DNA from: Chitinophagaceae bacterium
Lineage (GTDB): Bacteria > Bacteroidota > Bacteroidia > Chitinophagales > Chitinophagaceae
Length of the DNA stretch: 64,000 bases
Direction: 5' to 3'
NCBI GenBank assembly: GCA_016786745.1
Contig: JAEUVS010000045.1
Location: 1 to 64,000, forward strand
Positions 6,512-56,091 of this stretch are shown here, in pieces (within the stretch, counting starts at the first letter, position 1; every line of letters starts with the position of its first letter). Under the pieces are notes generated by a model. That model was not told the origin of the DNA. It saw only the letters and a list, made by a program, of their open reading frames with translations, and made no database searches. Made by a program: the position numbers and the translations under genes.

Positions 6512-7516
6512 TTAACTGTTTAATATTCGCGGAATATGCCGTTCAAGCATAAGCAAATCAGCAAGTACGATGGCAGTGACCGCCTCCAGTACCACGGGTA
6601 CTCTCAACGCTATGCAGAGGTCATGCCGTCCTTTAACGGAAAAGGCCTCCACATTATTGGTTTCGAGGTTAAGTGTTTGCTGCTCTTTGGGGGTCGAAGA
6701 TGTAGGTTTTATGGCAATCCTGAATACAAGTTCGTTTCCGTTGGTCAGTCCGCCCACAATGCCACCGGCGTGATTGGTGCGCGTTTTACCGGTAGTGTCC
6801 TCTATGGCATCGTTATGTTCCGATCCAAACATTCGTGCGGCCGCAAAGCCGGTACCGAATTCCACACCTCTTACGGCAGGGATCGCAAATACTGCGTGGG
6901 CGAGCAATGATTCGGCTGAATCGAAAAAGGGCTCTCCGAGTCCTGCTGGCAACCCGCTTACCCGGCACTCCACGATACCTCCTACCGAATCCTTGGCGTC
7001 GATCGCGCGCTGCAGTCCCTTTTCTGTATCTTTTTCACCGGCTACCTCGCTGATAGTAGCTTCTACAGATAATTTTAAAGAAGAAAGCAGTTTTTTCGCT
7101 ATTACTCCCGCTGCTACAAGGCACACTGTAAGCCTTCCGCTGAAATGACCGCCACCCCGAAAGTCTTCAAATCCGCCAAACTTTTGCCTCGCGACCATAT
7201 CCGCATGCCCGGGTCGTGGAACGGCGCGTTGCTTCGAATAATCTGATGATCGCGTGTTGTTGTTTTCGAATAGAATCGTTACCGGGGCACCTGTGGTTGT
7301 GTTATTAAATACGCCACTTTTAAAAAATGGAATGTCGTCTTCCTTTCGCGGCGTGGTTCCCTTTTGAACACCGCCTTTCCTTCTTTCAATATCTACATTA
7401 AAATCTTCAGGTGATAAGGATAATCCGGCAGGGCAACCGTCGATGTTAATACCGACGCTCTCGCCGTGCGACTCGCCGAAAATTGTTACGCGGAAAATGC
7501 GGCCGAATGAATTCAT
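6512..7516 (-). CDS. aroC: Chorismate synthase
   Basis: Last step of the shikimate pathway: EPSP to chorismate, using reduced FMN. The 334 residues begin MNSFGRIFRVTIFGESHGES, the family N-terminal signature. RPGHADMVARQKFGGFEDFRGGGHFSGR follows around residues 100-130 (FMN/substrate site), then GGIVGGLTNGNELVFR. Length is slightly short of the usual ~350-360 but all core motifs are present. The start ATG overlaps the aroA stop as ATGA, indicating translational coupling. Confidence 0.96.
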   Translation of the reverse strand: MNSFGRIFRVTIFGESHGESVGINIDGCPAGLSLSPEDFNVDIERRKGGVQKGTTPRKEDDIPFFKSGVFNNTTTGAPVTILFENNNTRSSDYSKQRAVPRPGHADMVARQKFGGFEDFRGGGHFSGRLTVCLVAAGVIAKKLLSSLKLSVEATISEVAGEKDTEKGLQRAIDAKDSVGGIVECRVSGLPAGLGEPFFDSAESLLAHAVFAIPAVRGVEFGTGFAAARMFGSEHNDAIEDTTGKTRTNHAGGIVGGLTNGNELVFRIAIKPTSSTPKEQQTLNLETNNVEAFSVKGRHDLCIALRVPVVLEAVTAIVLADLLMLERHIPRILNS

Positions 7517-8766
7517 TTGATTTGAATAGAATTTATTTTATCGTAGAAATCAGGGAACGACTTATCTATTGCCTCCGCTTCCTCAATAACAGTTTCTCCT
7601 TCTGCTTTCAGCGCCGCAACTGCGCAAGCCATTGCTATGCGATGATCGTGACGAGAATGCACGCGGGCGCCATTTAATTTACCACCACCATGCACCCGCA
7701 TCAGGTCGCCGGCGAGATCGATAGTAACGCCCATTTTTGAAAACTCTTCCTGCAGCGTAACGCCTCGGTTACTTTCTTTGTGCGCAAGGCGCGTTACACC
7801 TTTTATTTGTGTTGTGCCCTCACAGAAACTCGCAAGCGATACCAGCGGCGGAAACAGGTCTGGACAATCTGTGGCGTCAAATAGAAATCCTTTCAATTCA
7901 CCGGGCCAGACAGTAATCGCATTGGCGCTGTTTCTTATTCCTGCGCCCGAAGCTTCAAGTGCTTTCATGATTGCCCTGTCTGCCTGCGTAGAGGAAGTGC
8001 TCAAACCTTCTACAGTAATCTTGCCCGCAATCGCGCCCGACACAAGCAAAAACGCACCACCACTCCAGTCGCCCTCTACAGTGTAAGTGCCCGGCTTAAA
8101 GCCACCGGCATGGATGAACCGGAATTTTTCGTAATTAATATTTTCTACCTCAATTCCGAATTTTTTCATCACATCAAGTGTGAGATCGATGTATGGTTTG
8201 CTCTTGAGGTTGTTTACTTTTATTTCAACACCGGATGCGCCTGCGGCAGCATAGGCCATTAATAATCCTGTAAGAAACTGTGAACTCAGTGAGCCGTCGA
8301 TTTCGATATTCGCGGGCTCCAGTGGTCCCGTAATCTTTATGGGAAGATGTCCGTTGTTCGATTTTACCTGTATACCGATTTTCGGGAAAATTTCGTCGAA
8401 GAAATGCATTGGTCTTTTTAACAAACTTCCCGAACCGTTTATCGTCAGTTGTTTTTTGCTCAATGCCGCCAATGGTGTGAACATCCTTATACCAAGACCG
8501 CTTTCTCCACAATTGATAGCAGAAGATACCGGGGCGACGCCATCACTTTCTATAACAATCTCATGAGTTGTATTTGAAATAATACGCGCGCCAAGTTTTT
8601 CAATCACATCAAGCGCGGCGAGATCATCATTCGAAGAACCTGGATTTTTGATTGTTGTAGTACCCTTCGATAATAAAGCCGCGGCGCATGCGCGCTGCAT
8701 CGAACTTTTCGAAGCGGGCGCCACAACAGTACCGCTAACACCTGAAGGATTTATTTTTACCACCAT
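7513..8766 (-). CDS. aroA: 3-phosphoshikimate 1-carboxyvinyltransferase (EPSP synthase)
   Basis: Condenses shikimate-3-phosphate with PEP in the cytoplasm. 417 residues with the duplicated inside-out barrel. Motifs are PASKSSMQRACAAALLSKG near the N-terminus (substrate-binding Lys/Ser), NCGESGLGIRMFTPLAAL, DGSLSSQFLTGLLMA, and a C-terminal half with LAHKESNRGVTLQEEFSKMG and RVHSRHDHRIAMACAVAALK. It sits between aroB (2-base gap) and aroC (4-base overlap), in the expected operon order. Confidence 0.96.
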   Translation of the reverse strand: MVVKINPSGVSGTVVAPASKSSMQRACAAALLSKGTTTIKNPGSSNDDLAALDVIEKLGARIISNTTHEIVIESDGVAPVSSAINCGESGLGIRMFTPLAALSKKQLTINGSGSLLKRPMHFFDEIFPKIGIQVKSNNGHLPIKITGPLEPANIEIDGSLSSQFLTGLLMAYAAAGASGVEIKVNNLKSKPYIDLTLDVMKKFGIEVENINYEKFRFIHAGGFKPGTYTVEGDWSGGAFLLVSGAIAGKITVEGLSTSSTQADRAIMKALEASGAGIRNSANAITVWPGELKGFLFDATDCPDLFPPLVSLASFCEGTTQIKGVTRLAHKESNRGVTLQEEFSKMGVTIDLAGDLMRVHGGGKLNGARVHSRHDHRIAMACAVAALKAEGETVIEEAEAIDKSFPDFYDKINSIQIK

Positions 8767-8768
8767 GC

Positions 8769-9788
8769 TTAATAATTATTTACCAGGCTCTCCAGTTTAT
8801 TGAGCTCGATTTTTTTCGTCACGGCTTTACCAATATCGGCAAGCAAAACATAGTTGATAAAAGTGTTTACCTTTTTCTTGTCCATCCGAAGCACTTCAAA
8901 CACTTTCTTCTTATCTACCTTCATATCCACGGGTAAACCATACTTCTGCAGAAGATCGATTACACGCTGCGTCTGCGAAAATTCTGTCAGCTCTTCCGAC
9001 AAACGGCACGCCATCACCATCCCGATAGCCACTGCATTTCCGTGGGGCAGGTTGTAATTCGTTTCGATCGCATGCCCCCAGGTATGACCAAAGTTCAGCA
9101 ACTTTCTTTCTCCCTGCTCAAACTCATCTGTCATCACCACCTTCGATTTGATCATCGCATTACGCTGGATCAGTTTACTGAGCGCGTCTTTATCCTGGCG
9201 GTAGAATTTCAAATCATTCTGCTCAAGTTCTTTGAACAAAGTGGCATCTTTTATACAAGCATGCTTGATGATTTCAGCGAAACCGTTCACCCATTCCCTT
9301 AAGGGCAGGCTTTTGAGAAATGAGCTGTCGTAGAGTAAGAAATCGGGTTGCCTGATGGTTCCTGCAAGATTTTTATAGGGACCGACATCGATGCCGTTCT
9401 TTCCACCTATTGAAGCATCGACCATCGCGAGAAGAGATACCGGGACGAATCCGAATTTTATTCCACGCATGTAAATTGAAGCGGCATAACCGGTAATGTC
9501 GGTTACAACACCACCGCCCACTCCTACTAAAAATGATTTTCTGTCGGCGCCATAGTCAATCAACTGCTGAATGATTGAATCGACAGTAGACTGAATTTTA
9601 TTTTCTTCGCCAGGTTCGAGTACGATCGTTTTCCAGTGGCGGAACTTTCGCCCGTGCGACTGGTAAATATTTTCATCGGTAATAATCACTCCTTTCGAAG
9701 GGTCAACCAACTGATCCAGAACTCCAAACTCTGCGTTGAAATAATAGGCAGTTTTCTTTTCGGAAAATGTGTATGTTTTACGAAGCAT
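8769..9788 (-). CDS. aroB: 3-dehydroquinate synthase
   Basis: Converts DAHP to 3-dehydroquinate, NAD- and metal-dependent. 339 residues. Motifs are FLVGVGGGVVTDITGYAAS (nucleotide site), PVSLLAMVDASIGGKNGID, NGFAEIIKHACIKD and LNFGHTWGHAIE with the metal-binding His residues. The start ATG lies just 6 bases after the aroG-type gene stop. The cluster lacks aroD and aroE, while aroK is present separately at 42.9 kb. Confidence 0.96.
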   Translation of the reverse strand: MLRKTYTFSEKKTAYYFNAEFGVLDQLVDPSKGVIITDENIYQSHGRKFRHWKTIVLEPGEENKIQSTVDSIIQQLIDYGADRKSFLVGVGGGVVTDITGYAASIYMRGIKFGFVPVSLLAMVDASIGGKNGIDVGPYKNLAGTIRQPDFLLYDSSFLKSLPLREWVNGFAEIIKHACIKDATLFKELEQNDLKFYRQDKDALSKLIQRNAMIKSKVVMTDEFEQGERKLLNFGHTWGHAIETNYNLPHGNAVAIGMVMACRLSEELTEFSQTQRVIDLLQKYGLPVDMKVDKKKVFEVLRMDKKKVNTFINYVLLADIGKAVTKKIELNKLESLVNNY

Positions 9789-9794
9789 TAAATC

Positions 9795-10880
9795 CTAGCT
9801 GTTCATTATTCTGTTTTGATGATTGATGCTTTCCATGTGAACGGCATCAAAATACTTTGTGATGAATTCGCGGGTAAGGCCGAGTTTATCACCTTTCTGA
9901 TAAGCTCTTTCCAGTATTTCGTTCCAGCGGTTGGTTTGAAGGATAGTAATGCTGTTGTTCTTTTTGAACTCCCCGATTTTATCGGCAATCTTCATACGTT
10001 GTCCGAGTAATTGCAGCAACTCATCATCGAGGTGGTTGATCTGCTGACGAAGCTTTTCAAGTGCCTGGTGATAGGCTTCAGAATTGATATCTTCTTTCCT
10101 CCACACAATTTCATTGAGCATTTCAGCGAGTCGCTCGGGGGTAACCTGTTGCTTCGCATCGCTCCATGCATTATCAGGGTCGATGTGACTTTCTATCATG
10201 AGTCCGTCGAAGTCGAGGTCTATTGCTTTCTGGGCAACATCCATAAGGATGTCTCTTCTTCCGCAAATGTGCGATGGATCGTTTATTATCATCATGCCGG
10301 GGTTGCGGCGTTTCATTTCGATAGCGAGGTGCCACATAGGTGCGTTACGGTACTCAGTGTTTCCGTACGAAGAAAATCCGCGATGGATCAGGCCGATGTT
10401 TTTAATCCCGGCTTTCGACACTCTTTCAACGGCGCCGATCCACAGTTCGAGATCGGGGTTGATCGGATTTTTAATAAGCACCGGAACATTTGCACCGCGA
10501 AGTGCGTCGGCTACTTCCTGCACACTGAATGGGTTTACTGTTGTTCTTGCGCCAACCCAAAGAATGTCGATGTCGAAATGCAGCGCGTCTTCTACCTGTT
10601 TGCCTGTTGCTACTTCCACTGCAAGGGGAAGTCCTGTAAGTTTCTTCGCTTGCTGCAGCCATGGAAGACCTTTGGTACCGATGCCCTCAAAACTTCCGGG
10701 GCGGGTGCGGGGTTTCCAGATACCTGCGCGTAAAGCATGCACCTTACCGGTTTTAGCGAGTCGCGTAGCGGTTTGCAATACCTGCTCTTCTGTTTCTGCG
10801 CTGCAGGGACCTGAAATTATCAGCGGGCGCTTTTCCCACACTTCTGAGATTGGCGGGGCAGTTTTGAGTGTTTGTTCCAT
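9795..10880 (-). CDS. Bifunctional DAHP synthase / chorismate mutase
   Basis: 361 residues from the ATG at 10880 (MEQTLKTAPPISE). A longer in-frame extension to 10976 is possible but runs into a dispersed repeat and is rejected. Residues ~20-260 are a KDO8P-synthase-like (type I beta) DAHP synthase: IISGPCSAETEEQ, LRAGIWKPRTRPGSFEG, WVGARTTVNPF, and DPSHICGRRD with metal ligands. Residues ~270-361 are an AroQ chorismate mutase domain (LEKLRQQINHLDDELLQLLG, RMKIADKIGEFKK). The fusion joins the entry step and the branch to prephenate, fitting neighbours pheA and tyrA. Confidence 0.93.
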   Translation of the reverse strand: MEQTLKTAPPISEVWEKRPLIISGPCSAETEEQVLQTATRLAKTGKVHALRAGIWKPRTRPGSFEGIGTKGLPWLQQAKKLTGLPLAVEVATGKQVEDALHFDIDILWVGARTTVNPFSVQEVADALRGANVPVLIKNPINPDLELWIGAVERVSKAGIKNIGLIHRGFSSYGNTEYRNAPMWHLAIEMKRRNPGMMIINDPSHICGRRDILMDVAQKAIDLDFDGLMIESHIDPDNAWSDAKQQVTPERLAEMLNEIVWRKEDINSEAYHQALEKLRQQINHLDDELLQLLGQRMKIADKIGEFKKNNSITILQTNRWNEILERAYQKGDKLGLTREFITKYFDAVHMESINHQNRIMNS

Positions 10881-10927
10881 GGTGTTATTAAAAAGTTTTT
10901 GTTTTACTGGTATATGGTTACGTTCTC

Positions 10928-10957
10928 TGCCGTTCCCTCGCTTCGCTCGGGATGACA
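10928..10957 (-). repeat. Dispersed palindromic repeat, copy 2
   Basis: CCCTCGCTTCGCTCGGGATGAC, the minus orientation of the GTCATCCCGAGCGAAGCGAG family. It lies in the gap between the DEAD-box helicase gene and the DAHP synthase gene and is followed 14 bases later by a copy in the opposite orientation. Confidence 0.85.
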
Positions 10958-10971
10958 ACTCCAACTCCAAT

Positions 10972-11045
10972 GTCATCCCGAACCGCGCCCCTTCGGGCTT
11001 AGACCTCAGGGTAAACTCCGGCGCGTGTGAGGGATCAGCGGAGTC
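10972..11045 (+). repeat. Dispersed palindromic repeat, copy 3 (expanded loop)
   Basis: Starts GTCATCCCGAACCGCGCC and ends GTGAGGGATCAGCGGAGTC. The two conserved ends are separated by ~40 bases containing CCCCTTCGGGCTTAGACCTC, so this copy has a longer, different loop. It is inverted relative to copy 2, so the two together can form a large cruciform/hairpin in the helicase-aroG junction. Confidence 0.75.
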
Positions 11046-11051
11046 ATCATG

Positions 11052-12707
11052 TTACCTGTTTGCTTCATTCATTCTTATTCTCCTCCCCTTATAATTCTTC
11101 CCGTCTATCGCCCGGATCATTTTTTGTGCGGCGCCTTTCTCCACTTCTATCCAGCTATTCATCTCCTTCATATCAATTTTACCCAGCACCTCTTTCCTCA
11201 GGTCACTCATATCGAGAATAAACTGTAAAAAGCTCGCCTTATAAAATCCGTCTTTAGTTCCCAGGTTCACAAACAGCTTCGTAGAATTTCCATTTGTACG
11301 ATATTCTCTTCTCCCCTCTCCCCTCTCTCTTTTCCCATTTCCTCCAAATTCCGTCCGTTCCCAGGGTTGGCGCGCTCTTTCTCTCACGTTCAGATCTTCC
11401 GCGTTCTCATAATATTTCAGAAACCGGTCGAACTCCATCGCGGCCACTCTCTTCAGCACTTCCTCCTTGCTCATGTCAGCGAACTTTTCTTCGAGGAAGG
11501 GCACATAGGTTTCATAGTCGCCATGACTGATATCAGCCTCGATTATCTTATCCATGAATTTGAAGAACTGCTTACGGCACACGTCTTTCCCACTCGGAAT
11601 TTCGAGTTTATGAAAAGGGGCCTGCACCATCCTTTCTATCTGCTTCAGCTTTCCGATTTCGCGGCTGTGAATAATAGACATACATATGCCCGTTAAACCC
11701 GCCCGTCCCGTTCTTCCGCTTCTATGAGTGTACACTTCAACATCATCCGGCAATTCATAATTAATTACGTGGGTGATGCCCTGCACATCGATACCGCGCG
11801 CCGCAACGTCGGTCGCGATCAAAAGTTGAAGGGTTTTATCCCTGAAATCGCCCATTACCTTGTCACGCTGCTGCTGTGTCAGGTCGCCATGAAGTGCATC
11901 AATATCATATCCCTCGCGGGTCAGCTTTTCAGCGATGCTTTGCGCGTCTGCCTTTGTACGGGTAAAGATGATACCATATATACCCGGATTAAAATCAATC
12001 AACCTTTTCAACGCACCATACCTGTGCTGCGCCTGCGTGATATAGTATTGATGGTCTATGTTCTTGTTACCGGTGTTCACCTTGCCCACCGTAATCTCAA
12101 CAGGCGAGTTCATGTACTTCCTGCTCACTCTCCTGATTTCAGGCGGCATCGTGGCGCTGAACAGCCAGGTTGATTCGCGTTGAGGCGTATTCTGCAATAT
12201 GAACTCGATGTCGTCCTGGAAACCCATGTTCAGCATTTCATCCGCTTCATCCAACACTACATATTGTATCTGCCCGAGGTCAATCGCTTTTCGTTCTATC
12301 AGGTCTATTAACCGGCCCGGTGTGGCCACCACTATCTGCACGCCTTTTTTCAGTTCGCGTATTTGCGAACCGATCGGTGTGCCCCCGTAAACAGCGAGCA
12401 CATTCATTTTTGAAAGGAACTTCTTGAAACCTTCCATTTCATTTACTATCTGTATGCAGAGCTCCCGGGTGGGGCAAACAATTAGCGCCTGCGGGTATCT
12501 TTTATCAGGATCAACAAGGTGCAGTAAAGGCAATCCAAAAGCTGCTGTTTTGCCCGTACCTGTCTGAGCCAATCCAACCAGATCTTTTGTGCCGCTGATC
12601 AGGACCGGAATAGCCTGTTCCTGGATGGGTGTAGGTTGCGTAAATCCCAGAGCGTCAGTGGCCTGCACCAACTTCGCGTCTAAACCTAACCCTTCAAAAG
12701 TCGCCAT
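11052..12707 (-). CDS. DEAD-box RNA helicase with DbpA-type RNA-binding domain
   Basis: ATP-dependent RNA helicase of 551 residues. Q motif FTQPTPIQEQAIP, Walker A AQTGTGKTAAFG, DEAD box VLDEADEMLNMGF, SAT, then helicase C with ATDVAARGIDVQGITHVINY and HRSGRTGRAG. After a basic Arg/Gly-rich linker (~440-475) comes a DbpA-type RNA-binding domain (TKLFVNLGTKDGFYKASFLQ). This is the DeaD/CsdA-like architecture linked to ribosome assembly and cold adaptation. It sits inside the aromatic operon, 27 bases after tyrA, but has its own -7 motif TACCTTTG at 12732-12725. The linker is encoded by a low-complexity C/T tract shared with 34759-34778. Confidence 0.95.
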   Translation of the reverse strand: MATFEGLGLDAKLVQATDALGFTQPTPIQEQAIPVLISGTKDLVGLAQTGTGKTAAFGLPLLHLVDPDKRYPQALIVCPTRELCIQIVNEMEGFKKFLSKMNVLAVYGGTPIGSQIRELKKGVQIVVATPGRLIDLIERKAIDLGQIQYVVLDEADEMLNMGFQDDIEFILQNTPQRESTWLFSATMPPEIRRVSRKYMNSPVEITVGKVNTGNKNIDHQYYITQAQHRYGALKRLIDFNPGIYGIIFTRTKADAQSIAEKLTREGYDIDALHGDLTQQQRDKVMGDFRDKTLQLLIATDVAARGIDVQGITHVINYELPDDVEVYTHRSGRTGRAGLTGICMSIIHSREIGKLKQIERMVQAPFHKLEIPSGKDVCRKQFFKFMDKIIEADISHGDYETYVPFLEEKFADMSKEEVLKRVAAMEFDRFLKYYENAEDLNVRERARQPWERTEFGGNGKRERGEGRREYRTNGNSTKLFVNLGTKDGFYKASFLQFILDMSDLRKEVLGKIDMKEMNSWIEVEKGAAQKMIRAIDGKNYKGRRIRMNEANR

Positions 12708-12734: not shown

Positions 12735-13574
12735 TCATTTCAATATCTTCCTTATTTTATTCGCCTGCTCCATGAGATGCTTCAATTCCTTCTCGTCTCC
12801 TTTTTTTATATAGGTCTCAAATTTTTTCAGCTGCGAAATATGCTCCTTTAATACATCCAGGATGTTTTCCCTGTTCTGCATAAATATCTGGAGCCACATG
12901 GTCGGATTACTTTTTGCCAATCGCACAGTACTCTCAAAACCGGCGCTCGCCAGGTCGAAAATCGCGTTTTTCTCTTTTTCCTTTTCCAGCACCGTGTTTG
13001 CCAACGCAAAAGACGTTATATGCGAAATATGACTTATATAAGCGGTATGAAGATCGTGGTCGGTAGCATCCATATAAACGATTTTCATTTCAAACGCCCT
13101 GTAAATATTTTCTACCATTTCTATGGCATCGCTATCCGATTTATCCCTGTCGGAAATCACGGTTACCTTACCCTTAAACGCACCTTTCTGGGCCGCTTTC
13201 GGACCGCTGTATTCCGTACCCCACATCGGATGCGATCCCACAAACCGCGACCTCTTCGGATGATCCGCAATCGCTTCTAAAATTTGCCTTTTCGTGGAAC
13301 CCACATCCATTACCACCTGCGTTGTTACACGGTCAAGAATGCGCGGTATCACTTTCGTCGCCGCATCAACAGGTATCGCCACCACTATCAGGTCCGATTT
13401 TTTAATCGCGTACGACAACGTGCCCGATTCATCTATTAGGCCCAATTGTTTCGCCTCGTTCAAATGATTTTTGCTCGCATCAACCCCGATCACTTTTTTC
13501 GCAATGCCATGTTCCTTCAACGCAATAGCCATTGATCCACCAATTAATCCAACGCCAACGACCGTTACAATCAT
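12735..13574 (-). CDS. tyrA: Prephenate dehydrogenase
   Basis: NAD(P)-dependent oxidative decarboxylation of prephenate to 4-hydroxyphenylpyruvate, the Tyr branch. 279 residues: Rossmann motif VTVVGVGLIGGSMAIALKEHG at the N-terminus, then VMDVGSTKRQIL, GSHPMWGTEYSGPKAA (catalytic His region) and HDLHTAYISHISHITSFALA. No ACT or chorismate-mutase domain is attached; the mutase is on the DAHP synthase. Its ATG overlaps the aminotransferase stop by 4 bases (ATGA). Confidence 0.95.
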   Translation of the reverse strand: MIVTVVGVGLIGGSMAIALKEHGIAKKVIGVDASKNHLNEAKQLGLIDESGTLSYAIKKSDLIVVAIPVDAATKVIPRILDRVTTQVVMDVGSTKRQILEAIADHPKRSRFVGSHPMWGTEYSGPKAAQKGAFKGKVTVISDRDKSDSDAIEMVENIYRAFEMKIVYMDATDHDLHTAYISHISHITSFALANTVLEKEKEKNAIFDLASAGFESTVRLAKSNPTMWLQIFMQNRENILDVLKEHISQLKKFETYIKKGDEKELKHLMEQANKIRKILK

Positions 13575-14734
13575 GCTTCTATTTTTTGTATGCGGCGGAT
13601 GGCCTGTTTAAGTTTTTCCTCGGTGCTGCACAAACTGACCCTTATATGTCTTTCACCAGCGGAACCGAAAATTCCACCGGGAGTAATAAACACATTTGAT
13701 CCGTAAAGTATTTCATCGCTGAGCTCGTAGGAATTTTTATAGGAAGATGGAATGGCCGCCCAAACAAACATACCTGCCTGGTTGTCGGCTGCTTTACAAC
13801 CGATGGAGCCCAAAAGTTCGAGCGCGAGCAATTTTCTGCGCCCGTAATGTTTGTTTAATTCATCGTGCCATTCTTTTCCAAGCTGCAGCGCTTTTGCGGC
13901 GGCCAGTTGCACAGGAAGAAACATACCACTGTCCATGTTCGATTTAAACCGCAGCACTTCATCAATTCTTTCTTTCGCCCCGCATAACACACCCACTCTC
14001 CATCCTGCCATATTGTGCGATTTGCTTAACGAGTTTAATTCAACGGCTGCATCCTTTGCATTTTCAACCGAAAGAATACTCATCTGGTTTTCGTTCAAAA
14101 TAAAGCTGTACGGATTGTCGTGAACGATGAGAATATTATTTTTTCGCCCGAACGCAATGATATTCTCAAATAATTTTTTATCCGGCAACTGACCCGTGGG
14201 CATTTGCGGATAGTTTACAAACATCAATTTGACATTATTGTATTTTTTGAGTTCGTTTTCTATCGCATTAAAATCGGGTTGCCAGTTTGTTTCCTCTTTC
14301 AATTCATAATTGATACAGTTGCCTCCTGAAAGTTTTACCGCGCTGCTGTAAGTAGGATAACCGGGATCAGGAACAAGCGCATTGTCCCCGGCGTTCAGAT
14401 ACGTCATGCACACATGCATGATGCCTTCCTTCGACCCTATCAATGGAAGGATTTCTGTTTCAGCGTCGAGTGAAACGTTGTACCATTTTTTATACCACGA
14501 TGAAAAGGCATTTCTCAATTCGGGTACGCCTTTATAGCCCTGGTACGCATGCACATTCGGCTTTGCGGATTCATCCTGCAATACTTTTATCACATCAGGA
14601 TGCGGAGGCATATCGGGGCTCCCGATGCCGAGATTGATGATGTTTTTTCCGTCGGCGTTCAGCCTTGCTATTTCTCTTAATTTTTGAGAGAAGTAGTATT
14701 CGCCGATTCCGTCGAGTCGTTTTGATGTGATCAT
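13571..14734 (-). CDS. PLP-dependent class I/II aminotransferase (probable aromatic aminotransferase)
   Basis: 387 residues of fold type I: NLGIGSPDMPPHPDV near the N-terminus, PLIGSKEGIMHVCMTYLNAGD, DPGYPTYSSAV, VNYPQMPTGQLPD, HDNPYSFI, SLSKSHNMAGWRVGVLCG (PLP Lys in SLSKS) and a C-terminal RVSLCSTEEKLKQA. By sequence it resembles LL-diaminopimelate/aspartate aminotransferases. Its place between pheA and tyrA, with a 4-base overlap with tyrA, suggests it transaminates phenylpyruvate and 4-hydroxyphenylpyruvate. That substrate assignment is inference from context. Confidence 0.85.
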   Translation of the reverse strand: MITSKRLDGIGEYYFSQKLREIARLNADGKNIINLGIGSPDMPPHPDVIKVLQDESAKPNVHAYQGYKGVPELRNAFSSWYKKWYNVSLDAETEILPLIGSKEGIMHVCMTYLNAGDNALVPDPGYPTYSSAVKLSGGNCINYELKEETNWQPDFNAIENELKKYNNVKLMFVNYPQMPTGQLPDKKLFENIIAFGRKNNILIVHDNPYSFILNENQMSILSVENAKDAAVELNSLSKSHNMAGWRVGVLCGAKERIDEVLRFKSNMDSGMFLPVQLAAAKALQLGKEWHDELNKHYGRRKLLALELLGSIGCKAADNQAGMFVWAAIPSSYKNSYELSDEILYGSNVFITPGGIFGSAGERHIRVSLCSTEEKLKQAIRRIQKIEA

Positions 14735-14848: not shown

Positions 14849-15718
14849 TCAAAACGTTTCTCCTTTTTTATACACTCCATACACTTTAAGCCCTTCCGTT
14901 ACCGGCCTGATCTTCTCAATCACTTTTTCAAACTGCTGCACATTATCAAATTCCATATCCGCGTGAAACGAATACTGCCAGTCACTACCAGGTATCGGGA
15001 AGCTCTGCAACTTGCTCAGGTTAATACCTTCGTCGGCAATTTTCGTTAACACGCGCGCAAGGCTGCCTTTCGAATGATCCGTATGAAAATTAACCGACGC
15101 CTTGTTCGCGTCGTCCGCCACGTCACTCTCTTTAGCGGGCTCCAGCACCAAAAACCTCGTGTAATTATTTTTCATCGTATGAATATTCGGACCGATTATA
15201 TCGAGCCCGAACAATTCTGCCGCCAGCCTGCTTGCTATCGCCGCGATATGTTTGCTTTTGTGCTGGTGAACCAGCTTCGCACTTAGCGCCGTATCCTCTG
15301 TTTCCACCAGCTTCCAGTTGAATTTATCAAGATACTCAAGACACTGCTGGATGGCCATGTGATGCGAATGCACCTCTCGTATATCCTCCAACGTTACTCC
15401 CGGGTTTACCAGCAAATGCTGCCGGATATGTAAATACACTTCGCCTACGATTGTGAGGTTGCTCTTCTGCAACAGGTTGTAATTGGGAAGAATGCTTCCC
15501 GCGATCGAATTTTCAATCGCCATTACGCCACCGTTACTTTCTTTCGGGTTCGCGGCTATTTTCACCACCTCCCTGAAAGTGGCGCATGGAATCACTTCAA
15601 CCTGCTTTCCGAAAAAATGCAGCGCTGCTGCCTGGTGAAAGCTGCCTTCATATCCCTGGATGGAAACTTTTACCGGCTGCTCCGTTTTTTTCTGTTGCGG
15701 GTTTGGTTCCTTTTTCAT
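14849..15718 (-). CDS. pheA: Prephenate dehydratase
   Basis: Prephenate to phenylpyruvate, the committed Phe step. 289 residues: a charged Gln/Lys-rich N-terminal extension (~20 aa), then the PDT domain (VSIQGYEGSFHQAAALHFFG, GGVMAIENSIAGSILPNYNL, EVHSHHMAIQQCLEYL) and NNYTRFLVLEPA. A C-terminal ACT domain (~200-289) holds GSLARVLTKIADEGINLSKLQSFPIPG, the ESRP-like region for Phe feedback, here LQSFPIPG. No chorismate mutase domain is fused. It is the first structural gene after the Phe/Tyr leader peptide and attenuator. Confidence 0.96.
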   Translation of the reverse strand: MKKEPNPQQKKTEQPVKVSIQGYEGSFHQAAALHFFGKQVEVIPCATFREVVKIAANPKESNGGVMAIENSIAGSILPNYNLLQKSNLTIVGEVYLHIRQHLLVNPGVTLEDIREVHSHHMAIQQCLEYLDKFNWKLVETEDTALSAKLVHQHKSKHIAAIASRLAAELFGLDIIGPNIHTMKNNYTRFLVLEPAKESDVADDANKASVNFHTDHSKGSLARVLTKIADEGINLSKLQSFPIPGSDWQYSFHADMEFDNVQQFEKVIEKIRPVTEGLKVYGVYKKGETF

Positions 15719-15739
15719 TTACAGTTTTGGTTATAAACA

Positions 15740-15767
15740 AGAATCCCGGCTTCTCGGCCGGGACTCT
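15740..15767 (-). terminator. Attenuator terminator hairpin upstream of pheA
   Basis: On the minus strand AGAGTCCCGGC-CGAGAA-GCCGGGATTCT forms an 11-bp stem (one G-U) with a 6-base loop, followed by TGTTTATAA (a weak, interrupted U-tract). The 5' arm (TCCCGGC, 15763-15757) can instead pair with GCCGGGA inside the leader ORF (15812-15806), so terminator and antiterminator are mutually exclusive. It lies between the leader ORF stop (15793) and the pheA start (15718). Confidence 0.75.
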
Positions 15768-15792
15768 CTATTGTTATTATTCTATTTCAGTT

Positions 15793-15867
15793 TTAACAAA
15801 AGCTATCCCGGCTCCCTTTAAAGTAGAAGTAAAAATAAAAGAATGGGAATGCTTTTGCGATGTTCAT
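15793..15867 (-). CDS. Phe/Tyr-rich leader peptide of the pheA-tyrA operon
   Basis: A 24-codon ORF from ATG (15867) to TAA (15793). Residues 7-16 are FPFFYFYFYF, that is six Phe and three Tyr in ten codons. An in-frame TGA lies 6 bases before the ATG, so this is the first start. The 3' part of the ORF (codons GGG AGC CGG GAT) supplies the antiterminator arm GCCGGGA. The design equals the classical pheL-type attenuator: ribosomes stalling on Phe or Tyr codons would favour the antiterminator and allow pheA-AT-tyrA transcription. No Shine-Dalgarno is visible, as is usual in this phylum. Function is inferred from composition, position and hairpins. Confidence 0.85.
   Translation of the reverse strand: MNIAKAFPFFYFYFYFKGSRDSFC
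15806..15812 (-). promoter_or_regulatory. Antiterminator arm within the pheA leader
   Basis: GCCGGGA on the minus strand is identical to the 3' arm of the terminator hairpin and so competes for its 5' arm TCCCGGC at 15763-15757. It starts 7 bases after the last codon of the Phe/Tyr run, so a ribosome stalled early in the run leaves it free while a ribosome reaching the stop codon covers it. Confidence 0.7.
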
Positions 15868-15874
15868 TACGGAT

Positions 15875-15882
15875 CAAAAATA
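15875..15882 (-). promoter_or_regulatory. Candidate -7 motif (TATTTTTG) for the pheA leader
   Basis: TATTTTTG on the minus strand fits TAnnTTTG and ends 7 bases before the leader ATG, which would give an almost leaderless leader-peptide mRNA. The region is AT-rich, so a chance match is quite possible, and no clear -33 element is seen. Confidence 0.3.
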
Positions 15883-15912
15883 AATGAGAAATTCTAAAGT
15901 ATCAAAAAAATT

Positions 15913-15949
15913 CTCCGCAGATCCTTCGGCCTGCGGCCCCAGGATGACA
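15913..15949 (-). repeat. Dispersed palindromic repeat, copy 6 (degenerate)
   Basis: CTCCGCAGATCCTTCGGCCTGCGGCCCCAGGATGAC carries the conserved ends (CCGCAGATC..GGATGAC) around a different loop. It is followed by AGCTTCGCTGTCAT, another fragment typical of this family. It separates the pheA leader from the hypothetical gene ending at 15959. Confidence 0.7.
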
Positions 15950-15958
15950 GCTTCGCTG

Positions 15959-16522
15959 TCATTCGAGCCGGTGAACAATGGCTTCATTTATCTTTTTAAA
16001 GAGGTGAAACGGCTTGTATACCCGCCAGTTCTCAATAGTCATCAATTCAATATACCGGTTAAGCTTCGCCCTTGTAAAATCGTATTGGGTCTGTTCGGGC
16101 GTGTTCAGGAAAACGATCCAGCCATCCTCATCGGCCACATCATCATACCACTCAACGTAATAATCCTTATCACCACTGTGAAAATTGAGCACGTTTTCGC
16201 CGATCAGTATAAACTTATAAATGCCATGCGACATAAACTTGTCGGCTACCTCGCGTTTCAGGTTCATGACATCATTCTCGATCGCGTCGTTCCATTCTCC
16301 GATAAGCTCGATAACAATATACTTTTCGTCGTAGTCGGCGATCAGCACTTTGAGATACAGCGTTCGGGAATCGAACTCATCCCATTGCGGGTGTATGTAA
16401 TAGTTGTAAATGGTTTGTGAAAATTCAAATTCCGAATACACTCTTCCATAAAAGGGTGACCGTTCATCCTCCTCACTCACATACAAATGGCGCCAGTTAT
16501 AGAAAGGTTCGATATCATGCAT
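15959..16522 (-). CDS. Conserved-looking hypothetical cytoplasmic protein
   Basis: 187 residues, acidic and rich in Tyr, Trp and Phe (FYNWRHLYVSEEDERSPFYG, YYVEWYDDVADEDGWIVFL). No signal peptide or membrane segment and no recognised family; it reads like a Bacteroidota-specific cytoplasmic protein. Its stop codon (TGA, bases 15961-15959) lies inside the GTCAT end of repeat copy 6, so the repeat insertion may have defined the present C-terminus. Confidence 0.65.
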   Translation of the reverse strand: MHDIEPFYNWRHLYVSEEDERSPFYGRVYSEFEFSQTIYNYYIHPQWDEFDSRTLYLKVLIADYDEKYIVIELIGEWNDAIENDVMNLKREVADKFMSHGIYKFILIGENVLNFHSGDKDYYVEWYDDVADEDGWIVFLNTPEQTQYDFTRAKLNRYIELMTIENWRVYKPFHLFKKINEAIVHRLE

Positions 16523-27575: not shown

Positions 27576-29801
27576 TTAACTGAACTTCTTCCTCAACTCA
27601 CTCAACTTACTTTGAAAATCATTTACCGGGGGCTTCTTATCCACTTTCGCCGCTGCAGGCTTTGATTTCTTTTCATCCTTAATGCTCAAAGAAATTCTTT
27701 TTCTCGTCACATCCACTTCCGTAACAGTAACCATCAATTGCTGCTGAAGCTTAACCACCTGGTTGGGATCGGAAATGTAAGTGCTGCTCATCTGTGAGAT
27801 ATGCAGCAAACCGTCCTGCTTCACACCAATATCCACAAACGCACCAAAGTTCGTGATATTCGTTACGATGCCCGGCACCCTCATGCCGGGTTTAACATCC
27901 TCAATGGTTTTTATGGTATCATCAAACCGGAACTCCTCCGCAACCGCCCGCGGATCGCGACCAGGCTTTTCAAGCTCCTTCAGGATATCATTGATAGTAA
28001 ACTCACCAATATTTTCCGAAATATACTTTTTGGGATTGATTTGTTTTTTTAGTGAAGGATCTTTTATCAGCTCGTTCACTGAACAGTTAAGATCCTTCGA
28101 CATAGCATGAACTATATGATAACTTTCAGGATGCACCGCGCTGTTATCAAGGGGATCCGCGGCGCCGGGAATTCTCATAAAGCCCGCACTCTGTTCAAAA
28201 CTCTTCGGCCCCATCATCGCAACATTTTTAATTTCACTCCGCGATTTAAACGGACCATTTTTCGCGCGGTAGTCAACAATATTCTTAGCCAGTGTCGCGC
28301 TCAAACCTGAAACATAGCCCAACAAATGCCGGCTCGCCGTGTTGATGTCAACGCCAACATGGTTCACACAACTTTCAACCACTTTATCCAATTGTTCCTT
28401 TAGCCGCGTTTGATTTACATCGTGCTGGTATTGTCCAACGCCAATAGATTTAGCGTCAATTTTTACAAGCTCACTTAACGGATCAAGAAGGCGACGGCCT
28501 ATACTGATCGCGCCACGCACGGTTACATCTTCATCAGGAAATTCCTCACGTGCCACTTCCGAAGCCGAATAAATGGAAGCGCCACTTTCGTTCACCATAA
28601 ATACACTTACCGGCTTGCCAAAATCAATTCCACGCACCAGCTGTTCTGTTTCGCGTCCCGCAGTGCCGTTACCTATGCCAATTGCATCGATGCCATGCCT
28701 TTCAACAAGTTTTTTTAATTCAGTAACCGCGCCCGCTTTCTCCGATTGAGGGGGATGCGGGAAAATAGTTGAATAGTGTTTGAAATTTCCCTGCGCGTCG
28801 AGGCACACTACCTTACACCCCGTTCTGAAACCGGGGTCTATGGCCATGACCCTTTTCGAACCTAACGGCGAAGCCAGCAACAGCTGCCTAAGGTTTTCCG
28901 CGAAAACTCTGATCGCTTCTTCATCAGCTGCATTTTTCGCTATGAGCCTGAATTCATTTTCTATCGAGGGCTTCAATAAACGTCCATGGCAGTCTTCAAC
29001 CGCTTCGGCAACCTGCGCGGATGCCCCCGTTTTCTTCTTTATAAATATGCCCTTTAGTTGCTCCTTCGCTTCCGACTCATCAATCGTAATATCCATCAAC
29101 AAAAATCCTTCCTTCTCTCCTCGTCTTATAGCCAGCATCCTGTGCGAAGGACACGCGGACAGCGGTTCACTAAATTCGAAGTAATCGCGGTACTTCTGAG
29201 CCTCTTCTGTCTCTTTTTTTGATTTCAACACTTTGGAACTGACGGTCGCATATTTTGTAAACAATTGCCTGACGGCGTTTCGTGCCTGCTCATTTTCAGC
29301 TATCCATTCAGCAATAATATCGCGCGCACCCTGCAGCGCATCTTCAACAGAAGTCACCTGCTCATTGACAAATTTCGCAGCCTCAGCCCGCACATCAACA
29401 TCAGTTTGCCCGAATATTGTCTTAGCAAGGGATTCGAGACCTTTTTCTATGGCTGTCGTCGCGCGCGTTTTTCTCTTTGGCTTGAAGGGCAGGTAAATAT
29501 CTTCGACTTCAGTTGCTTCGAAACTATTTTCTATGCGCGCCTTCAGTTCGGGAGTCAGCTTTCCTGCTGCTTCAATTGTTTTGATCACCGTTTCCTTCCG
29601 CTTATGCAGCTCGTCGAAATATTTTATTTTTTCTACGATATCATTGATACGTACTTCATCGAGGTTGCCGGTCGCCTCTTTACGGTAACGCGCCATAAAT
29701 GGTATTGTGGCGCCTTCCTGGTTTAAATTATAAACATTCTCTACCTGTCCCGCACGCACGGTCAACAGCTCCGCTATCTTTTGAATATATCTTTTTTCCA
29801 T
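27576..29801 (-). CDS. tex: Tex family RNA-binding transcription accessory protein
   Basis: 741 residues from the ATG at 29801 (MEKRYIQKIAELLTV). Tex architecture: N-terminal helical region (GATIPFMARYRKEATGNLDE), YqgF/RNase H-like domain (VMAIDPGFRTGCKVVCLD), helix-hairpin-helix (NQTRLKEQLDKVVESCVNHVGV, HLLGYVSGLSATLAKNIVDY), and a C-terminal S1 domain (PGMRVPGIVTNITNFGAFVDIG, DGLLHISQMS). A Lys-rich tail follows. It binds nucleic acid and affects transcription. Divergent from the cysteine synthase gene across a 54-base gap holding a GAGGGG/CCCCTC dyad. Confidence 0.95.
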   Translation of the reverse strand: MEKRYIQKIAELLTVRAGQVENVYNLNQEGATIPFMARYRKEATGNLDEVRINDIVEKIKYFDELHKRKETVIKTIEAAGKLTPELKARIENSFEATEVEDIYLPFKPKRKTRATTAIEKGLESLAKTIFGQTDVDVRAEAAKFVNEQVTSVEDALQGARDIIAEWIAENEQARNAVRQLFTKYATVSSKVLKSKKETEEAQKYRDYFEFSEPLSACPSHRMLAIRRGEKEGFLLMDITIDESEAKEQLKGIFIKKKTGASAQVAEAVEDCHGRLLKPSIENEFRLIAKNAADEEAIRVFAENLRQLLLASPLGSKRVMAIDPGFRTGCKVVCLDAQGNFKHYSTIFPHPPQSEKAGAVTELKKLVERHGIDAIGIGNGTAGRETEQLVRGIDFGKPVSVFMVNESGASIYSASEVAREEFPDEDVTVRGAISIGRRLLDPLSELVKIDAKSIGVGQYQHDVNQTRLKEQLDKVVESCVNHVGVDINTASRHLLGYVSGLSATLAKNIVDYRAKNGPFKSRSEIKNVAMMGPKSFEQSAGFMRIPGAADPLDNSAVHPESYHIVHAMSKDLNCSVNELIKDPSLKKQINPKKYISENIGEFTINDILKELEKPGRDPRAVAEEFRFDDTIKTIEDVKPGMRVPGIVTNITNFGAFVDIGVKQDGLLHISQMSSTYISDPNQVVKLQQQLMVTVTEVDVTRKRISLSIKDEKKSKPAAAKVDKKPPVNDFQSKLSELRKKFS

Positions 29802-56040: not shown

Positions 56041-56091
<51 letters not shown>

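Follow-up and report, generated by a model that had tools for sequence, protein, structure and literature searches.

A leader peptide rich in Phe and Tyr codons, probably an attenuator of aromatic amino acid genes in the Bacteroidia

Introduction

Leader-peptide attenuation is a textbook form of gene control. Escherichia coli PheL contains Phe codons, is not known to contain Tyr codons, and controls pheA alone. A single leader carries codons for more than one product of a branched pathway in the enterobacterial thrL (Thr/Ile) and ilvL (Ile/Val/Leu). The transcript of the Sinorhizobium meliloti trpL leader reportedly begins at the leader AUG. That system concerns Trp only, and a role in trans has been reported for the trpL peptide (PMC7298713). 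Here, we describe a leader from a bacterium of the Chitinophagaceae. The window, meaning the whole stretch of DNA analysed, comprises 64,000 nucleotides of contig JAEUVS010000045.1 (assembly GCA_016786745.1). Like the enterobacterial pheL-pheA attenuator (RF01859, Phe_leader), the locus has a Phe-rich open reading frame (ORF), alternative 1:2, 2:3 and 3:4 stems, and a terminator before pheA. Unlike at pheL, Phe and Tyr codons alternate, tyrA is part of the operon, and the transcript is predicted to be near-leaderless. The leader is multivalent, as are thrL and ilvL, but the amino acids, operons and phylum differ.

Vitreschak et al. 2004 and Lopatovskaya et al. 2010 are also said to have dealt with attenuators in Bacteroidetes/Chlorobi. 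Our search of the open literature, outside which those two papers fall, found no described Phe/Tyr leader. The main text of PMC9723704 reports a conserved structured element upstream of pheA and hisG; the one at pheA, in Flavobacterium psychrophilum and other Flavobacteriaceae, has no Rfam match. It also speaks of strong clues for leader-peptide attenuation before amino acid operons in Bacteroidota. The pheA element is very probably the one described here; that main text gives no peptide, Tyr codons, switch model or class-wide survey. According to PMC7366714, there are also small ORFs reminiscent of leader peptides. A preliminary description of our locus knew of no dual Phe/Tyr version in the phylum. 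We found no paper on the dual form either; attenuation by leader peptides ahead of amino acid operons, pheA with its structured element included, had been hinted at for the Flavobacteriaceae (PMC9723704). In short, leader-peptide attenuation is known, and the conserved dual Phe/Tyr form appears to be new.

Results

A Phe/Tyr-rich ORF ahead of pheA

The leader is a 24-codon ORF on the minus strand (15793..15867) that encodes MNIAKAFPFFYFYFYFKGSRDSFC. Residues 7-16 read FPFFYFYFYF, with six Phe and three Tyr codons (15820..15849), as the preliminary description had it. A short ORF with putative control codons for the end products is what would be expected of an attenuator. The first gene under predicted control is pheA, for prephenate dehydratase (14849..15718, minus strand; PF00800). 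The same strand encodes a class I/II aminotransferase (13571..14734; PF00155), presumably aromatic, judging by its operon, and the prephenate dehydrogenase TyrA (12735..13574; PF02153, and NF006307 above the cut-off). A DEAD-box RNA helicase gene (11052-12707) lies between tyrA and the gene for DAHP synthase/chorismate mutase (9795..10976, minus strand); aroB is at 8769-9788 and aroA at 7513-8766. Possibly, the latter three belong to the same transcript, beyond the helicase gene. Note that the aromatic genes, split by the helicase gene here, are directly adjacent in many relatives.

We collected 200 loci by PheA, from relatives, named GTDB genomes and the phylum; 196 had enough upstream sequence. 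Homologous leaders, scored as a short ORF with at least six Phe/Tyr per 10 residues, precede pheA at 161 of these 196 loci. Dinucleotide shuffles gave 32 in 3920, so that about 1.6 would be expected. The run cannot be ascribed to chance, since at least seven Phe/Tyr in 10 were found at 156 of 196 loci and in 6 of 3920 shuffled controls. The Phe/Tyr run is also confined to the frame of the leader ORF (156/162, compared to 0/162 for the other two frames). The runner-up amino acid pair was Phe/Ser, at 37 loci, Phe being common to both pairs. Folding of the 162 nt leader RNA gave a z-score of -4.3 against its shuffles.

Could the ORF be spurious, or an unrelated F/Y-rich non-coding stretch, beside the terminator of the gene that lies upstream (15959-16522)? 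This part of the window is rich in A and T, and a single chance ORF per genome is conceivable. Such an accident would not be expected to recur, in frame and with covarying stems, at 161 of 196 loci, and there is a promoter between the upstream gene and the leader (both described below). We give this explanation practically no weight.

Leaders are present in Chitinophagaceae, Hymenobacter, Rikenellaceae, Faecalibacter, Saprospiraceae, Marinilabiliaceae and others. In a separate sample, from the order around Labilibaculum (Bacteroidales-type), all 30 of 30 pheA loci have a Phe/Tyr leader. None was found at L176-L200, the most distant 25 loci, all of them outside the window's class. Cases of pheA-aminotransferase-tyrA with no leader also occur (L047, L119 and L167-L170). 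Note that the class name, Bacteroidia, is taken from named relatives and kinship labels. We conclude that the Phe/Tyr leader recurs across the class, beyond the Chitinophagaceae, at almost every pheA gene sampled there.

A promoter motif close to the leader start codon

Upstream of the ORF, on the same strand, the sequence TATTTTTG (15875..15882) matches the -7 element TAnnTTTG of the primary sigma factor of Bacteroidota. A -33 element, TTTG (15903..15906), is separated from it by 20 nt, in agreement with the Bacteroidota promoter. Among 154 single or first leaders, 76 have TAnnTTTG between 2 and 20 nt 5' of the leader ATG, mostly at 4-9 nt, where 4.1 were expected. In 59 of these 76, TTG is found at the -33 spacing. 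The Bacteroidota -7 box is described as occupying -12 to -5 relative to the start (PMC9723704). Hence, transcription is predicted to begin about 3 nt before the AUG, at about 15870, making the mRNA near-leaderless. Few mRNAs of the phylum have a 5' UTR this short. Reported values are about 3.7% for 5' UTRs of less than 10 nt in B. thetaiotaomicron (PMC7366714) and 5.5% for leaderless mRNAs in F. psychrophilum (PMC9723704).

Three further features of the window were seen. The sequence CGAAGGATCT occurs twice (15919-15928 and 28090-28099; 0.1 expected by chance), the first copy being just 5' of the leader promoter; the pair resembles one end of an interspersed repeat. Upstream of the leader, on the same strand, the ORF at 15959-16522 encodes 187 amino acids with no Pfam or NCBIfam match. 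Finally, about 47 T in a row on the plus strand (56043-56089) are possibly an assembly feature.

Mutually exclusive stems are kept in relatives

Four RNA segments of the leader, all read from the minus strand, can form alternative stems. Segment 1 (GCAAAAGC, 15851..15858) pairs with GCTTTTGT of segment 2 (15803-15796), in a 1:2 hairpin derived from folding and from relatives. Segment 2 (GCCGGGATAGCTTTTGTTA, 15794..15812) consists of the last leader codons. Segment 3 (TAACAATAGAGAGTCCCGGC, 15757..15776) can pair with segment 2, as antiterminator, or with segment 4, as terminator. The terminator hairpin, 3:4 (15739..15768), has arms GAGAGTCCCGGC and GCCGGGATTCTT either side of CGAGAA and is followed by a U-rich tail. 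Thus, there is an intrinsic terminator ahead of the first structural gene.

The preliminary description had derived a switch from two copies of GCCGGGA. These are indeed present, one inside the ORF (15812-15806) and one in the terminator 3' arm (15750-15744, previously given as the 15746 region), and both can pair with TCCCGGC at 15763-15757. Its account of the switch, correct for this 7-mer pairing, was incomplete. The antiterminator is longer, being two helices (GCCGGGA with TCCCGGC, and TGTTGA with TCAACA), and the third element, the 1:2 hairpin, was missing.

We scored three helices for paired cells in 39 relatives (alignment A2), compared to 500 shuffles. For the antiterminator, 86.6% of cells are paired and 24 are changed on both sides; no shuffle of the 500 scored as high. 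Sliding the partner by one base lowered pairing to 42-46%. The terminator has 96.6% of cells paired and 34 changed on both sides, again with 0/500 shuffles as high. The 1:2 hairpin (CAAAAGCAT with ATGCTTTTG) has 75% of cells paired, and 4/500 shuffles reached this, so its support is weaker. At two loci (L016 and L060) segments 2, 3 and 4 have changed jointly. Hence, the F/Y run and both stems of the preliminary description are kept in relatives, with compensatory changes that preserve the mutually exclusive pairings. This exclusivity of 2:3 and 3:4, evident from covariation and from the window sequence, and, more weakly, the 1:2 hairpin, are features of the attenuator class.

The arrangement extends to the larger set of 178 leaders, of which 152 have an identified terminator. 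In 88% of terminator-bearing leaders, pairing between an upstream partner and the segment-3 region beats 95% of shuffles. The median distance from leader stop codon to terminator arm is 25 nt. Folded alone, the stems of the window have energies of -17.8 (2:3), -20.3 (1:2) and -21.0 (3:4) kcal/mol. At equilibrium, the terminator would beat the antiterminator, so that switching has to take place while the RNA is being made, in line with the usual picture of attenuators.

Despite the likeness to pheL, the leader does not belong to RF01859. The window scored 21.4 bits, where the gathering cut-off is 55 bits, and 0/39 related genomes had a match over the cut-off (best 43.6 bits). In two relatives, the top sub-threshold matches are the Phe/Tyr leaders themselves, and the position, immediately upstream of pheA, is that of RF01859.

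Both Phe and Tyr codons appear to be maintained

At least two Phe and at least two Tyr codons are present in 176 of 178 leaders. Since UUY and UAY are one base apart, the Tyr codons might be neutral filler in a Phe-only attenuator. Phe codons do outnumber Tyr codons (1081 to 714), and the first gene, pheA, serves Phe alone. However, if Phe and Tyr were interchangeable, 17.4 of 197 distinct leaders should contain less than two Phe or less than two Tyr codons, and 3 do. After thinning of similar leaders, 3 were observed and 8.5 expected (P = 0.027). Alternation of Phe and Tyr is also more frequent than at random (61% compared to 48%).

Genomes with split operons also bear on this. In Labilibaculum, pheA is a lone gene behind MKTVFFNSWFFIFFFFSGEKNRIPMK, and aminotransferase-tyrA-DAHP synthase-aroB are at another site, behind MKSFSTFFYYFWYFYYPQR and MNNSGLAFRYYYFYFWHNNNRAGCLIPNFK. 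A family search found the split between pheA and the tyrA operon in 12 genomes around Labilibaculum, probably reflecting one evolutionary event. In all 12, the leader of the lone pheA is essentially Phe-only, its block nearest the gene containing no more than one Tyr. The leaders of the split-off aminotransferase-tyrA-DAHP synthase operons (L342-L353) are all Tyr-rich, with Phe and Trp, and possibly sense all three aromatic amino acids. Relatives with linked pheA and tyrA retain mixed Phe/Tyr leaders. A second, independent, case is a Tyr-less leader in a MAG labelled Verrucomicrobiota (L102), where neither tyrA nor Phe hydroxylase was detected. Hence, Tyr codons are gone exactly where pheA stands alone, and present before the split-off tyrA operon. 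A Phe-only attenuator is, on this evidence, improbable.

The proposal, in the preliminary description, that one leader may sense both Phe and Tyr gains independent support from these split operons. By all appearances, the leaders keep both codon types in connection with genes of the Phe and Tyr branches alike, and the codons have changed to match the genes downstream. In one Sphingobacteriaceae-like family, Tyr codons are kept before pheA-DAHP synthase-aroA, and tyrA does not adjoin pheA. This speaks against dual sensing, unless DAHP synthase or Phe hydroxylase links pheA to the supply of Tyr in this family. All seven genomes tested (7/7) encode a Phe-hydroxylase-like protein, which suggests that pheA may feed Tyr there. 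Two other codon patterns were sought. Trp codons, as a sign of sensing DAHP synthase demand, occur in 52 of 178 leaders, with no clean link to operon content. Among multi-gene operons, the Tyr fraction had no clear trend with operon class, and only lone pheA stands out.

Stalling need not depend on charged tRNA. Control could instead involve the nascent peptide (TnaC-like arrest), Rho or pheA translation, and the 1:2 hairpin and long leader leave room for such modes. In the Chitinophagaceae, the C-terminal codons (PGxLLL) are conserved. These codons also form segment 2 of the RNA, for which covariation with segment 3 was seen, and the C-terminal peptide varies by lineage (VVFAKA, DSFC, PGMLLL). 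Furthermore, the leader ends in an intrinsic terminator, and its codon identity tracks the pathway genes. We therefore consider this alternative very improbable, and favour stalling at Phe and Tyr codons.

Tandem leaders, and other leaders in the same genome

At 17 of 161 loci, two Phe/Tyr leaders occur in series; both have a terminator in six, by a strict scan. Tandem loci (L025, L080, L082, L085, L087-L091, L103-L105, L108, L120, L122 and L142) are from Chitinophaga, Hymenobacter and others, and the first Chitinophaga leader also contains a Trp codon. Of the second leaders, 1/16 has the TAnnTTTG promoter motif. Since most lack it, both leaders are probably on one transcript.

In the window's genome, no second Phe/Tyr leader was found. 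Other 7-codon F/Y runs were rejected as leaders, being in a poly-T tract, or within or opposite longer genes. The genome does have a His-rich leader, MIFTLHIHHHHTSLAG (HIHHHH), ahead of hisG (L372:2206-2256, minus strand, genome contig C16). It also has a Trp-rich leader, MKFITQLWWWHTFSNRGR (WWW), ahead of trpE (L379:2063-2119, minus strand, same contig). Similar His leaders occur in 7/9 other relatives with hisG, and Trp counterparts in 6/8 with trpE. The Rfam Trp_leader model scored MKFITQLWWWHTFSNRGR at 32.8 bits, below the 41-bit cut-off. These leaders each concern one amino acid, compared to two for the pheA leader, and their presence indicates that the lineage uses attenuation.

Discussion

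We propose a ribosome-mediated transcription attenuator in which one leader peptide senses charged tRNA-Phe and tRNA-Tyr, and assign this a probability of roughly 0.87. Sequence comparison provided the leader, its codon content, the alternative stems, the promoter motif and the operon content. From these, we infer that the ribosome stalls and that transcription terminates or reads through in the cell, and also that Tyr shortage alone would suffice. The transcript would begin about 3 nt ahead of the leader AUG. When charged tRNA-Phe and tRNA-Tyr are both abundant, the ribosome would reach the stop codon and cover segment 2, allowing the 3:4 hairpin to end transcription before pheA. If charged tRNA for either Phe or Tyr were scarce, the ribosome would stall in the Phe/Tyr block and displace segment 1. 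Segment 2, left free, would pair with nascent segment 3, and the terminator would be blocked. Transcription of pheA-aminotransferase-tyrA, and perhaps of genes beyond, would follow. Were the leader untranslated, 1:2 would form and 3:4 would terminate. Very probably, this leader RNA switches the three genes on and off.

More tentatively, and at slightly less than even odds, we suggest that the ancestor of the Bacteroidia already had an attenuator working as a Phe/Tyr OR gate. Its codons would have been re-tuned where operons split: to Phe only for lone pheA, and to Tyr/Phe/Trp for aminotransferase-tyrA-DAHP synthase. Lineages with serial leaders (Chitinophaga, Hymenobacter and parts of Bacteroidales) would combine signals from several aromatic tRNAs by means of attenuators stacked on one near-leaderless mRNA.

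Our data indicate that, in a large bacterial class with members in the environment and the gut, aromatic amino acid synthesis is under leader-peptide attenuation, with two amino acids per leader. The split-operon genomes already provide a test case for the joint evolution of control codons and gene content. Leaders in tandem, and transcripts that begin so close to the AUG, are uncommon, and could be tested in culturable strains such as Chitinophaga, Flavobacterium and Hymenobacter.
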